Source: Phytohabitans rumicis (GTDB lineage: Bacteria > Actinomycetota > Actinomycetes > Mycobacteriales > Micromonosporaceae). From it: a stretch of 64,000 bases of DNA. The translations under genes and the position numbers were made by a program. How positions within the stretch are numbered: the first letter of the stretch is position 1; each line of letters opens with the position of its first letter. This document shows positions 10,629-62,948 of this stretch, piece after piece. The notes below the pieces were generated by a model. It did no database searches. It was not told where the DNA came from and saw only the letters and a list, made by a program, of their open reading frames with translations. The DNA lies in assembly GCF_011764445.1 (NCBI RefSeq), contig NZ_BLPG01000001.1:3596001-3660000 (forward strand). Reading direction: 5' to 3'.

Positions 10629-11128
10629 CCCCTCCCTCCCTCCCTCACTCTCCGTACGCCCACACACCCTCCGCGTACACGCCCGCCTTCCGCGCCTCGT
10701 CGATCAAGGACTTCCGCGCGCCGATCAAGGGCTTCTGCGTCGATCAAGGGCTTCTGCGTCGATCAAGGGCGAATGGTCGTGCTTTGATCTCCGATTCACG
10801 ACCATTCGCCCTTGATCGGCGCGGAAGTCCTTGATCGACGTAAAACTTTCCCCGCCTAGCGGCGCCCAGTTCGAGGGGTTTGGGCATGATCGGCGGTAAA
10901 GTGAGGTGATCCACTAATCGGGCATGATCCGCGAACGGGCACATGTCGATCACGTTGCCGAATTGTTATCGCCGCCAACAAACTCGCTGGCTCGACGGTC
11001 TTGTGCGACCCGGTCGTGCCGCAATACGTTGCCGGACACAACAAACGTACGTCGACCTGATGACAACCGCGCCCGCCGCGCGACCCACTCCCACCACAAA
11101 AAACCCACCTTTTGAAAGGACCCGTGCT
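10629..11128. other. 500-bp intergenic region before the sugar ABC operon
   Basis: It holds a CCCT simple-sequence stretch just after ybaK, repeat copy A (10698-10840), then about 290 bp of less GC-rich leader. In the leader a loose inverted pair TTGTT/AACAA (10963-10981) could be an operator for the ROK repressor of the operon, but this is weak. No convincing gene is seen. Confidence 0.5.
10698..10840. repeat. GTCGATCAAGG palindromic repeat, copy A (nested)
   Basis: An inner hairpin has perfect 22-nt arms (CGATCAAGGGCGAATGGTCG plus TG) around a loop containing CTTTGATCTCC. An outer pair of arms, about 22 nt and perfect (GTCGATCAAGGACTTCCGCG plus C), encloses it. Between the left outer and inner arms are two direct copies of a 19-20-nt unit, CGATCAAGGGCTTCTGCGT. 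The element is wholly intergenic, and four relatives occur in this window. Confidence 0.9.
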
Positions 11129-12231
11129 ATGCGCAAAGGGATCCTCTCCATCGCCGCCGTCAGCCTGCTGACGATCGGCACGCTCGCCGCCTGTGGCGAC
11201 GATTCGGGCGACGACTCCGGCTCCGGCACTGGCTCCGGCAAGACGCCCAAGATCGGCGTTATCCTGCCCGACAGCGCCTCGTCCGTCCGCTGGGAGACCG
11301 CGGACCGGAAGTTCCTGAAGGCGGCGTTCGACGCGGCCGGCGTGGAGTCCGACATCCAGAACGCGCAGGGCGACAAGACCCAGTTCCAGACCCTGGCCGA
11401 CCAGATGATCACGAACGGCGCCAACGTGCTGATGATCGTCAACCTGGACTCCGGCACCGGCAAGGCCGTCCTGGACAAGGCGAAGTCCCAGGGCGTCGCC
11501 ACGATCGACTACGACCGGCTGACCCTCGGCGGCTCCGCTCAGTACTACGTCAGCTTCGACAACGAGGCCGTCGGCAAGCTGCAGGGCGAGGGCCTGGTCA
11601 AGTGCCTGACCGAAAAGAACGCGTCGAAGCCGGTGGTGGCTGAGCTCAACGGGTCCCCACCGACAACAACGCCACCCTGTTCAAGAACGGGTACGACTCG
11701 GTGCTCAAGCCGAAGTACGACGCGGGCGAGTACGTCAAGGGCCCGGACCAGTCGGTGCCAGACTGGGACAACACCCAGGCCGGCACGATCTTCGAGCAGA
11801 TGATGACCCAGCAGAACGGCAAGATCGACGGCGTTCTGGCCGCCAACGACGGGCTGGGCAACGCCGCCATCCAGGTGCTCAAGAAGAACAAGCTCAACGG
11901 CAAGGTCCCGGTGACCGGGCAGGACGCCACGGTCCAGGGCCTGCAGAACATCCTCGCCGGCGACCAGTGCATGACCGTCTACAAGGCGATCAAGCAGGAG
12001 GCTGACGCGGCCGCCGGACTGGCGATCGCGCTGGCCAAGGGCGAGACGAAGGACACCGGGCAGAGCGTCAAGGACCCAGAGTCCGGCCGGACCGTGCCGT
12101 CCGTGCTGCTGACGCCGGTGTCGATCACCAAGGACAACGTCAAGGACGTCGTCGCCGACGGGTTCGTGACCAAGGCGGAGCTTTGCACCGGGGCGTACGC
12201 CACCCTCTGCACCCAGGCAGGCATTAGCTGA
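11129..12231 (+). CDS. Xylose/ribose-type ABC sugar-binding lipoprotein, apparent frameshift
   Basis: Periplasmic-binding-type protein with a signal peptide and lipobox LAAC (Cys22). The segments PKIGVILPDS, ANVLMIVNLDSGTGKAVLD, IDYDRL and YYVSFDNEAVGKLQGEGLV follow the XylF pattern, pointing to a pentose. After VVAELNGSP the frame breaks. The continuation TDNNATLFKNGYDSVLKPKYDAGEY is recovered if the C-run at 11655-11658 has one more C, giving about 367 residues to the stop at 12231. The second half (LAANDGLGNAAIQVL, VPVTGQDA) is intact, so a base-call error is likelier than decay. First gene of the operon. Confidence 0.88.
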
Positions 12232-12244
12232 CCTGATTACGGTC

Positions 12245-12285
12245 GATCTAGGGCGCACCGGCAAGTGGCCGGTGTGCCCTAGATC
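12245..12285. terminator. Intra-operon hairpin after the sugar-binding gene
   Basis: Eighteen-nt arms (GATCTAGGGCGCACCGGC and its complement, one mismatch) around AAGTG. It lies between the binding-protein stop and the ATPase start with no T-run. In ABC operons such hairpins often protect the binding-protein mRNA or attenuate downstream genes, which would give excess binding protein; this role is inferred. Confidence 0.7.
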
Positions 12286-12303
12286 AGCGCTAAGGAGAGC
12301 ACC

Positions 12304-13107
12304 GTGACACCCCTGTTGGAAGCGCGAGGGATCGACAAGTCGTTCGGTCCCGTTCAGGTCTTGCAAGACGTGGCCTTCGCCGTTCCGCCCGGAGAGGTGA
12401 CCGCGCTCGTCGGCGACAACGGCGCCGGCAAGTCCACCCTCGTCAAGTGCATCAGCGGGATCTATCCCATCGACTCGGGTGAGCTCTTCTTCGAGGGCCA
12501 GCCGGTGCACATCCACGGGCCGCGGGACGCCGCCGGACTGGGCATCGAGGTCGTCTACCAAGACCTCGCCCTGTGCGACAACCTCGACATCGTCCAGAAC
12601 ATGTTCCTGGGCCGGGAGAAGCGCTCCGGCCTCGTGCTGGACGAGCCCACCATGGAACAGATGGCCGCCGACACCCTGGCCGGCCTGTCCGTACGCACCG
12701 TGAAGTCTTTGCGCCAGCTCGTCGCCAGCCTGTCCGGCGGCCAGCGCCAGACGGTGGCCATCGCCAAGGCCGTGCTGTGGAACAGCAAGCTGGTCATCCT
12801 CGACGAGCCGACCGCCGCCCTGGGCGTCGCACAGACCGCGCAGGTGCTCGAACTGGTCCGGCGGCTCGCCGACAACGGGCTGGCCGTCGTACTCATCTCG
12901 CACAACATGAACGACGTCTTCGCCGTCTCCGACAACATCGCCGCGCTGTACCTCGGCCGCATGGTCGCCCAGGTGAAAACGACCGACGTCACCCATGCGC
13001 AGGTCGTCGAGCTGATCACCGCCGGGCGCAGCGGCGAACTGGGCCTGCCGGCGGTGGAGAACGGCGCCGAGTTCATGGAATCCGACATCCCGGGAGCGAA
13101 GCAATGA
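12304..13107 (+). CDS. Sugar ABC transporter ATP-binding protein (single-domain)
   Basis: 267 residues from GTG, with Walker A GDNGAGKST at about 38-46, signature LSGGQRQ at about 140 and Walker B LVILDEPTAALG at about 162. The sequence style matches the XylG/RbsA class, but those proteins usually carry two tandem ATPase modules in about 500 residues; this one has only one, so it presumably dimerises. The stop TGA overlaps the ATG of the permease (ATGA), indicating coupling. Confidence 0.93.
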   Translation: MTPLLEARGIDKSFGPVQVLQDVAFAVPPGEVTALVGDNGAGKSTLVKCISGIYPIDSGELFFEGQPVHIHGPRDAAGLGIEVVYQDLALCDNLDIVQNMFLGREKRSGLVLDEPTMEQMAADTLAGLSVRTVKSLRQLVASLSGGQRQTVAIAKAVLWNSKLVILDEPTAALGVAQTAQVLELVRRLADNGLAVVLISHNMNDVFAVSDNIAALYLGRMVAQVKTTDVTHAQVVELITAGRSGELGLPAVENGAEFMESDIPGAKQ

Positions 13108-61614: not shown

Positions 61615-61624
61615 GACTTTCCGT

Positions 61625-61724
61625 GTCGATCAAGGCTTTGCGCGTCGATCAAGGGCAAATGGTCGCGGTTTGATCTTTGATCCACGGCCGTATGCCCTTG
61701 ATCGACGCGAAAGTCCTTGATCGG
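61625..61724. repeat. GTCGATCAAGG palindromic repeat, copy D
   Basis: Core 61642-61708, arms about 25 nt beginning GCGTCGATCAAGGGCA around a loop with TTTGATCTTTGATC. Outer half-sites GTCGATCAAGG and CCTTGATCGG flank it. It sits 10 bp after the membrane-protein stop and just upstream of the methyltransferase gene. Confidence 0.9.
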
Positions 61725-61766
61725 TGCAGGGTTTGGAAGCTGATAGTTGCTGAGTACGATGTCCGA

Positions 61767-62783
61767 ATGCTGACGCCGACGCCCCTCATGCGCCTCGTGT
61801 CCGGTTTCTGGAGCTTCAAGACGTTCGCTGCCGCTGTCGAGTTAGACCTGTTCAGCAGGTTGGCCGGCGGCAAGACCATCACGGTGGAGAAGGCCGCCGC
61901 CGACCTCGGCCTCGCCGACCGCCCGGCCGACCTCCTGCTCGCCGCGTGCGCCTCGCTCGGCCTGCTCGACAGATCCGGTGACGGCTACCGCAACTCGGCG
62001 CTGGCCGAGGAGTTCCTGGTCTCCGGCAAACCGTACTACTTCGGTGGCCAGGTACGGTACTGCGACGCGCGGACGTACCTGCCGTGGCACCGGGTCGGCG
62101 ACGCGCTGCGCACCGACCGGCCGCTGACCTGGGACCCGGACAGCCAGGAGTCGATGTTCGAGACCGAGGACCCGCAGATCCTCGAGCTCTTCTGGGAGGC
62201 CATGTACTCCACATCGATCTTCACAGCCCGCGCGCTCGGCGAGGCGTACGACTTCGGCGCGCACACCCGACTGCTCGACGTGGGCGGCGGCTCCGGCGCG
62301 TACCCGATCGAGCTGTGCCGGCGGTATGCCGGCCTCCAGGCGACGGTGTACGACCTGCCGCATGTCTGCCCCATCGCCGACGAGAAGGGCGCGGCGGCCG
62401 GGCTGAGCGACCGCATCGACAGCTTCGCCGGCAACTTCCTGCACGAGCCGGCGCTGCCGCCCGGGTACGACGTCATCCTGCTCAGCATGATCCTGCACGA
62501 CTGGGACGAGCCGACCAATCGTGAGCTGCTGGGCAAGTGCTTCGCGGCGCTGCCGACCGGGGGCGCGGTGGTGGTGTCCGAGCTGCTGCTGAACGCCGAC
62601 CGGACCGGCCCGCCGGAGGCCGCCCTGATGGGGATGAACATGCTCGTCGAGACGGTGGGCGGCCGGAACTACTCGGAGACGGAGTACGTCACCTGGCTGA
62701 CCGAGGCCGGCTTCGTCGACGCCGAGGTCATCCACTTCGAGGCGCCCGGCGCGAACGGCGTCGTGGTGGCCCGCAAGCCCTGA
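61767..62783 (+). CDS. O-methyltransferase (plant COMT/acetylserotonin type)
   Basis: 338 residues from ATG 61767; the frame is open farther upstream but that part is repeat D. An N-terminal dimerisation winged helix (LMRLVSGFWSFKTFAAAVEL) is followed by a SAM domain with motif I LLDVGGGSGAYPIEL at about 165 and the catalytic His in LHDWDEP. Such enzymes methylate small phenolic or antibiotic compounds. A secondary-metabolite role is possible, but no cluster is visible. Confidence 0.88.
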   Translation: MLTPTPLMRLVSGFWSFKTFAAAVELDLFSRLAGGKTITVEKAAADLGLADRPADLLLAACASLGLLDRSGDGYRNSALAEEFLVSGKPYYFGGQVRYCDARTYLPWHRVGDALRTDRPLTWDPDSQESMFETEDPQILELFWEAMYSTSIFTARALGEAYDFGAHTRLLDVGGGSGAYPIELCRRYAGLQATVYDLPHVCPIADEKGAAAGLSDRIDSFAGNFLHEPALPPGYDVILLSMILHDWDEPTNRELLGKCFAALPTGGAVVVSELLLNADRTGPPEAALMGMNMLVETVGGRNYSETEYVTWLTEAGFVDAEVIHFEAPGANGVVVARKP

Positions 62784-62845
62784 CGCTCCCCGGGCGCGGC
62801 GGGCGCCGCGCCCGCTGTGGCGCCGCGCGTCGCGGCGCCGCGCCC

Positions 62846-62948
62846 GCCGATCAAGGACTTTCGCGTCGATCAAGGGCATACGGCCGTGGATAAGAGATCA
62901 AACCACGACCGTTCGCCCTTGATCGACGAGCAAAGCCTTGATCGACGC
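62846..62948. repeat. GTCGATCAAGG palindromic repeat, copy E
   Basis: Core 62864-62928, arms beginning CGTCGATCAAGGGC with three or four mismatches, loop containing GAGATCAAA (same orientation as copy C). Outer half-sites CGATCAAGGACTTT on the left and CCTTGATCGACG on the right. The thiC frame runs into it and stops in its loop. Confidence 0.9.

Follow-up and report, generated by a model that had tools for sequence, protein, structure and literature searches.

What are the nested palindromes that lie between genes in five places of a 64 000 nucleotide stretch of the Phytohabitans rumicis genome (contig NZ_BLPG01000001.1, positions 3 596 001 to 3 660 000; the whole stretch is called the window below), and how might they have come there? 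An earlier note on this DNA had likened them to repetitive extragenic palindromes (REPs) and bacterial interspersed mosaic elements (BIMEs), and had guessed at a mobiliser of the REP-associated tyrosine transposase (RAYT) type. The five places it gave were correct to within 1 bp, and the palindromes do belong to a dispersed REP/BIME-like family with hundreds of copies, relatives in other genera and a fold that is kept between genomes. We regard it as somewhat probable that they are members of a family of non-autonomous mobile hairpins, resembling the REP doublets forming hairpins (REPINs) and moved by a putative enzyme.

In all five window copies the core is exactly 63 bp long and is built from two 24 nt arms and a 15 nt loop. 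Each core has the foot GTCGATCAAGG, the arm starting with GTCGATCAAGG[GA]C and ending with CCTTGATCGRC, and GATC motifs are present in both feet and in the loop. The loop is asymmetric, with the motif TTTGATCTC in four of the five copies and TTTGATCTT (last base T) in the copy at 61644; because this motif is on one strand only, the core has a direction. Three copies carry the loop on the + strand (cores starting at 10758, 21711 and 61644) and two on the − strand (21917 and 62865), not two and two as previously stated. Copy 1 (10699–10839, +) has its core at 10758–10820, with TTTGATCTC on the + strand, the half-sites F4 (10699–10709), F3 (10720–10730) and F2 (10739–10749), and the 3′ unit R2 at 10829–10839. 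Copy 2 (21711–21792, +; core 21711–21773, 3′ unit R2 21782–21792) and copy 3 (21898–21979, −; core 21917–21979 with the loop on the − strand, 3′ unit 21898–21908) are both without a 5′ unit. Copy 4 (61625–61725, +) comprises a 5′ unit at 61625–61635, the core at 61644–61706 and a 3′ unit at 61715–61725 (CCTTGATCGGT), and copy 5 (62846–62946, −) a 5′ unit at 62936–62946, the core at 62865–62927, again with the loop on the − strand, and a 3′ unit at 62846–62856.

The same architecture was found in a 1.724 Mb sample of the P. rumicis genome (about 16% of the whole; locus L061, which overlaps the window, was left out). Cores were defined by mismatch distance, with cut-offs of at most 22 mismatches in P. 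rumicis and at most 26 in the congener G057; this replaced some earlier regular-expression matches, which were chance matches in coding DNA. The motif TTNGATCTC stood at the loop position in 85 of the 90 P. rumicis cores and 42 of the 44 G057 cores. Extra half-sites at a fixed short spacing had been noticed before, and they form a regular lattice, repeating outward in 19 bp steps in 118 of 132 successive same-strand pairs no more than 80 bp apart (80 sampled 20 kb blocks). The 3′ unit was present in 88/90 P. rumicis and 43/44 G057 cores and the 5′ unit, which is optional, in 51/90 and 1/44, respectively; the repeating element in the P. rumicis/G057 lineage is therefore best regarded as the core plus one 3′ unit. 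Exact half-sites lay close to a core in 225 of 235 cases, leaving only 10 away from any. DNA uptake sequences of Neisseria and Haemophilus are 10–11-mers present in about a thousand copies, with inverted pairs after genes that are used as terminators. This idea was considered and rejected here, as only 10 of the 235 exact 11-mers are away from a core and the conserved unit is 63 bp long.

Within the window GTCGATCAAGG was matched 23 times at up to one mismatch, whereas 100 shuffles gave a mean of 0.94 matches and a maximum of 4. The P. rumicis genome (10.7 Mb) has 1360 exact copies of the 11-mer (716 + 644) and none of its reversed control, and a generic foot pattern gave 612 matches. About 520–610 cores are estimated for the genome: 90 cores in 1.724 Mb scale to about 560 in 10.71 Mb, and about 520 follow from the 1360 half-sites if every 90 cores account for 235 of them. 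The element is thus an extragenic palindrome of high copy number. As single-stranded DNA the five window cores folded with z-scores from −6.4 to −12.7 (copy 2, −12.69). When hairpins were sought de novo by requiring a palindromic 4-mer at the start of the arms, 126 with GATC were found in the 1.724 Mb (10.7 per 1000 GATC sites), compared with 0–0.6 per 1000 sites for the control 4-mers GCGC, CGCG, GGCC, CCGG, GTAC, AGCT, ACGT, ATAT, TATA and AATT, and 1.5–2.2 for CATG and TGCA; the figure for TTAA stems from one hairpin only. Controls with CTAG (8 hairpins, 12.2 per 1000) and TCGA (63, 5.1 per 1000) were also high, probably through nesting inside GATCTAG and GTCGATC feet. Chance palindromes are rejected by the shuffles, the reversed 11-mer, the palindromic 4-mer controls and the fold z-scores.

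The GATC-footed hairpins of P. rumicis include at least five further families with other stems and loops (56, 60, 62, 64 and 53 bp), each with at least two copies. One of them, a 56 bp near-perfect palindrome with arms CGTGATCArGGCGTCCyTCAAGTCG, was seen in 16 copies, including those at 6430–6485 and 36639–36694 of the window.

Whether the two arms of the 63 bp core change together depended on the level of comparison. Among the 79 distinct P. rumicis cores, 93.4% of the alignment cells were paired as against 93.1% after shuffling, 31 cells were doubly changed as against 27.9, and even the best of five measures (pairs changed on both sides, 7 versus 5.6) was reached by 27 of 500 shuffles; variable stem positions combine almost freely within this genome. 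In the alignment A2 of these cores, a perfect C-G pair at columns 20/44 was avoided (2/79 distinct cores), C-A and T-G being common there (mutual-information permutation p 0.008, one of 31 pairs tested). Between genomes, with one copy each from 29 other genomes and one from P. rumicis, 93.5% of the cells were paired as against 72.1% after shuffling and 136 were doubly changed as against 41.6; none of 500 shuffles equalled either value, and slid controls were paired at 26–42%. A separate set of 38 sequences agreed on compensatory change between genomes. The co-varying arms proposed from the window alone are therefore strongly supported between genomes but not within this one. The foot GTYGATC and the loop TTGATCTC were nearly invariant between genomes, and the 29 single copies differed from each other mainly in the stem. 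P. rumicis and G057 each have a stem of their own: the inner stem GGYCGYG was found in 85/90 P. rumicis and 0/44 G057 cores, and GCACGYG in 43/44 G057 and 0/90 P. rumicis cores, both standing on the same foot and loop.

This pattern bears on the possibility that GTYGATC on its 19 bp lattice is a dispersed DNA binding site, for example of a nucleoid protein, gyrase or a recombination protein, with the hairpin incidental. The regular half-site steps and the GATC in both feet and loop are what such a site might look like, but a double-stranded site does not need stem pairs to be kept by double changes between genomes. Furthermore, the half-site is hardly used alone, given that nearly all exact copies are near a core, and an extra unit occurs regularly in P. 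rumicis and G057 but was sporadic in the other genomes inspected (e.g. loci L226 and L355); we thus consider a binding site improbable. A mobile hairpin would account for these data differently. The element may spread as a folded single strand that is recognized by a putative enzyme without the known RAYT/Y1 domain. If this enzyme reads the two feet and the loop TTGATCTC and requires a stem of nearly constant length, the stem sequence between them would be free to change provided that it stays paired.

The cores are placed at gene ends. Based on gene calls made for this analysis, the 90 P. rumicis cores comprised 46 between convergent, 23 between tandem and 11 between divergent genes; the other ten, 8 scored as ‘inside’ a gene and 2 as edge cases, were excluded from the gap counts. 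With 158 convergent, 543 tandem and 265 divergent background gaps of at least 30 bp, convergent gaps were strongly enriched (46/80 cores versus 158/966 gaps, Fisher p 3e-15). The median distance from stop codon to core was 65 bp (n = 64, cores with a matching gene end). Core orientation matched that of the gene in 18/23 tandem gaps and that of the closer gene end in 32/46 convergent ones (p 0.011 for either). Cores were scarce at low GC content, being present in 4 of 24 blocks below 70% GC versus 39 of 55 other blocks. Low-GC blocks at about 0.5–1.7 and 7.1–7.6 Mb of contig C1 contain few repeats and have the look of acquired regions; at about 4.2–4.3 Mb of the same contig the cumulative GC skew of the sampled blocks reaches its minimum, a likely replication origin.

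Such a location raises the main rival explanation, namely that the hairpins are selected 3′-end signals, either terminators without a U-tract or mRNA-protecting hairpins with a protein-bound foot and loop, which are homogenized by gene conversion within each genome and do not move. The distance to stop codons and the convergent-gap enrichment agree with this, as does the placement of 36 GATC hairpins other than the core in a 1.644 Mb subset (15 convergent, 19 tandem, 1 divergent and 1 inside a gene). Folded as RNA with their flanks, all five window copies were far more stable than shuffled sequences (z −6.5 to −17.7), positions 10735–10845 around copy 1 reaching −95 kcal/mol (z −17.65), and a Streptomyces clavuligerus study reports no U-rich tract at 353 of 535 highly structured transcript ends (PMC8269248). 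Against an intrinsic terminator, the GC-rich hairpin is present but not the U-tract, the 8 nt after the P. rumicis consensus core being GcggAant. Hundreds of copies, moreover, are near-identical over 63 bp, the unpaired loop included, several unrelated stem/loop families occupy the same kind of place in one genome, and orthologous gaps in congeners do without the P. rumicis-type core, its presence being patchy between them. We therefore judge a purely selected signal to be rather unlikely. Under the mobile hairpin reading the same location could arise if new copies survive close behind stop codons, above all in convergent gaps, where a strong hairpin at the 3′ end does no harm or is of use; their transcripts would then end in a very stable RNA hairpin, which might terminate transcription in both directions or block exonucleases.

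The patchiness is seen in comparisons with the congeners. P. rumicis had 14 cores in 100 kb, compared with none (at up to 24 mismatches) in 312 kb from five congeners, and the 300 kb fetched from G031, G077, G091 and G103 contained neither such a core nor the exact 11-mer. Orthologous flanks could be located in one or more congeners for 9 of the 14 cores, and the gaps between them lacked a P. rumicis-type core. The generic foot pattern was matched 612 times in P. rumicis and 421 times in G057, versus 4, 8, 8 and 5 times in G031, G077, G091 and G103, respectively, and a tree of a 3.4 kb block split P. rumicis and G057 from the rest with support 1.0. Between these two genomes, 2 of 6 comparable gaps were occupied in both, 2 only in P. 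rumicis and 2 only in G057; in the two common gaps the copies had the same orientation in one and opposite orientations in the other. A different palindrome was present in two of the compared gaps of G091, and G103 had a palindrome in a gap that holds two P. rumicis copies. Congeners have GATC-footed families of their own (CGTGATCrAAGCTCCC..., GTTGATCAGGGA...; loci L161–L165 of G091, L157 and L160 of G103), and some of these hairpins occupy the same orthologous gaps as P. rumicis copies. The P. rumicis flanks are C-rich before the core and G-rich after it, and often of low complexity or tandemly repeated.

Relatives of the core are spread beyond the genus. A model of the P. rumicis core matched at least 47 of 300 genomes of the family, a broader model at least 66 of 348 of the order (49 of them in one genus, g4, presumably Micromonospora), and a class-wide search at least 26 of 296; as no more than 17, 15 and 18 candidates per genome, respectively, were scored under strict filters, these counts are floors and absences are weak. 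Outside the order the GATC foot was kept but the loop rarely, 7 of the 8 loop letters being found in 2 of 17 loci inspected (L365 and L380). A scan of named genomes, in which 45 loci were inspected among the matches listed (P. rumicis itself may be missing from them), showed palindromic copies in Micromonospora sp. CPCC 205371, M. endophytica, M. phaseoli, Micromonospora sp. U21, three metagenome-assembled Micromonosporaceae genomes and Pseudonocardia bannensis; 14 checked matches in other organisms on the same list were not palindromic. At one g4 site, compared in 29 of 30 loci (L330 was left out), the element was recognized by eye in 4; the gap in G206 was 26 instead of 90 bp, and the remaining loci had other sequence, some with pieces of GATC palindromes. 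The common g4 element (L117/L311 and orthologues) lies between the terminator-like palindrome of what is presumably a carboxypeptidase-like gene and a presumed cobalamin-riboswitch-like sequence. The copies may be part of a larger set of actinomycete palindromic repeats with a common GATC foot (GTYGATC...GATCRAC). That this set is a superfamily of mobile hairpins, with several stem/loop families per genome, mostly at mRNA 3′ ends, and a mover that is unrelated to RAYT/Y1 and reads the foot and TTGATCTC as the stem drifts through compensatory changes, is a tentative proposal to which we give less weight than to the mobility of the 63 bp family.

The search for a mobiliser bears on the older guess that the copies are classical REP/BIME elements moved by a RAYT. 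They do resemble the REPs described in the literature (PMC3733652, PMC2817692) as high-copy extragenic palindromes at gene ends, with paired + ... − arrangements. However, the RAYT-type domain PF01797 had no match in P. rumicis or five congeners, G050 being the only positive among ten genomes searched, and of 26 genomes, most of them selected for high copy number, 2 had it; P. rumicis, which belonged to this set, again had no match. Near the five Y1 (PF01797) loci examined there was no GATC-footed hairpin or foot motif, and the consensus has the foot GTYGATC in both arms in place of a GTAG (or GTGG-like) tag at a single foot. A RAYT is thus very improbable as the mover. No other candidate emerged: Rep_trans (PF02486) had no match in any of 13 genomes, the Bacillus subtilis control being positive, and the Y2 transposase PF04986 had no match in the same number, a result that is uninformative as its control had no match anywhere either. 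Among 1478 open reading frames (ORFs) near copies no recurrent transposase was recognized on clustering, the widest of the 40 clusters shown spanning 7 genomes; a single-copy enzyme could be missed, because the P. rumicis sample covers only part of the genome. The nine ORFs beside the window copies, which were the only ones scanned there and some of which are overlapping alternatives, contained no transposase domain.

Several observations weigh against mobility. No mobiliser was found, whether as PF01797, Rep_trans or a recurrent neighbouring transposase, and arm variants assort independently within the genome, something not expected from simple whole-element copying. The compared gaps showed neither a target-site duplication nor a clean insertion of one element; a duplication is not recognizable because the intergenic flanks do not align, and the P. 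rumicis gaps are 86–747 bp longer than their orthologues, usually containing more than one element. The orientation bias is moderate, and in G057 alone (8/13 tandem and 10/15 convergent gaps, after exclusion of 9 edge and 2 ‘inside’ cores of 44) it is not significant. The copy in the same gap and orientation in P. rumicis and G057 could reflect vertical inheritance with homogenized stems, and the g4 site is common to several species, so that some copies are old. Nor are the other congeners entirely devoid of related sequence: the exact 11-mer occurs 80 times in G031, 61 in G077 and 34 in G091, above the 5–25 of most genomes, a degenerate relative with a ATAGATCTCC loop is present in L164 of G091, and the P. 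rumicis core model matches G091 weakly at 2 places but G031, G077 and G103 not at all. Beyond the fetched regions, G031, G077 and G091 may contain half-sites of a related kind or copies in decay. In G031 and G077 the 80 and 61 exact 11-mers go with only 4 and 8 foot-pattern matches, and none lies within the 100 kb fetched from these two genomes.

As to the surroundings of the window copies, copy 3 is downstream of a uracil-DNA glycosylase (UDG) superfamily gene (22055–22735, −), and the stop codon of the ORF at 60148–61614 (+) is 29 bp from the core of copy 4. Copy 5 lies between convergent O-methyltransferase (+) and thiC (−) genes, and the thiC reading frame stops within its core. This frame (62898–63200, −) continues for 35 codons beyond its apparent usual end (...GSRVYLP; we take ...VYLP to be the usual end of ThiC), through the 5′ unit to a TGA in the hairpin loop, and the called ThiC C-terminus, VDQGRTVVV, is encoded by the element. 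Four GATC-footed hairpins that had not been listed earlier are also present in the window, none assigned to a strand: the two members of the 56 bp family B (6430–6485 and 36639–36694), a 47 bp hairpin with a GTCGATCTAGGGCGCACCGGC arm (12242–12288) and a 62 bp hairpin with a GTCGATCTTGAAGTTGTCAGG arm (32608–32669), of which a second copy exists in L104. Rfam gave no match above the gathering score in the window, and a search with one window copy gave no match for plasmid or phage carriage.

Most descriptions of REP-type repeats involve a GTAG tag and a RAYT transposase. If the reading as mobile hairpins is true, a superfamily with another foot and without a RAYT in a large, much-studied group of antibiotic producers would mean that this kind of repeat arose repeatedly or is moved by another machine. 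Hundreds of gene ends in these genomes are also marked by one testable 3′ hairpin, useful for 3′-end annotation, and the hairpins perhaps explain assembly breaks, as 5 of 17 G057 matches begin no more than 100 bp from where a contig starts. No description of this hairpin family was recognized among the open-licence PMC papers listed, which is weak evidence of novelty, and none of the seven actinobacterial names sought occurs in the main text of PMC3733652.

Compared with known systems, the U-less structured 3′ ends of a high-GC actinomycete likewise have a strong transcript-end hairpin without a U-tract, but the consulted passages of that study describe no single dispersed conserved sequence family (PMC8269248). 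GTAG REPs and BIMEs, as characterized in PMC2817692 and PMC3733652, are high-copy extragenic palindromes found mostly downstream of ORFs, in convergent or same-direction gaps; they measure 20–40 bp, carry GTAG at a single end and go with a Y1 transposase, whereas here the tag is inside the palindrome at both ends and PF01797 was not found in the P. rumicis genome. The CGTC-tagged REPs, according to PMC3733652, also form a palindrome superfamily with a fixed short tag and apparently no dedicated transposase, but CGTC stands at one end, and no such single-end tag was found in our consensus. The closest likeness is to REPINs, which are described in PMC3116915 as extragenic REP doublets forming hairpins, present in many copies and showing compensatory changes, with mobility proposed to proceed through a single strand. 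As in these elements, conserved inverted ends enclose a part that is constant in length and hairpin capacity and undergoes compensatory changes; the hairpins described here differ in the GTYGATC foot on both arms, the asymmetric loop TTGATCTC, the 63 bp length, the lack of a detected RAYT and the actinomycete hosts. It is because their anatomy matches that of REPINs, and because the CGTC-tagged REPs provide a precedent without a known transposase, that we read them as a family of GATC-footed hairpins that is probably mobile.

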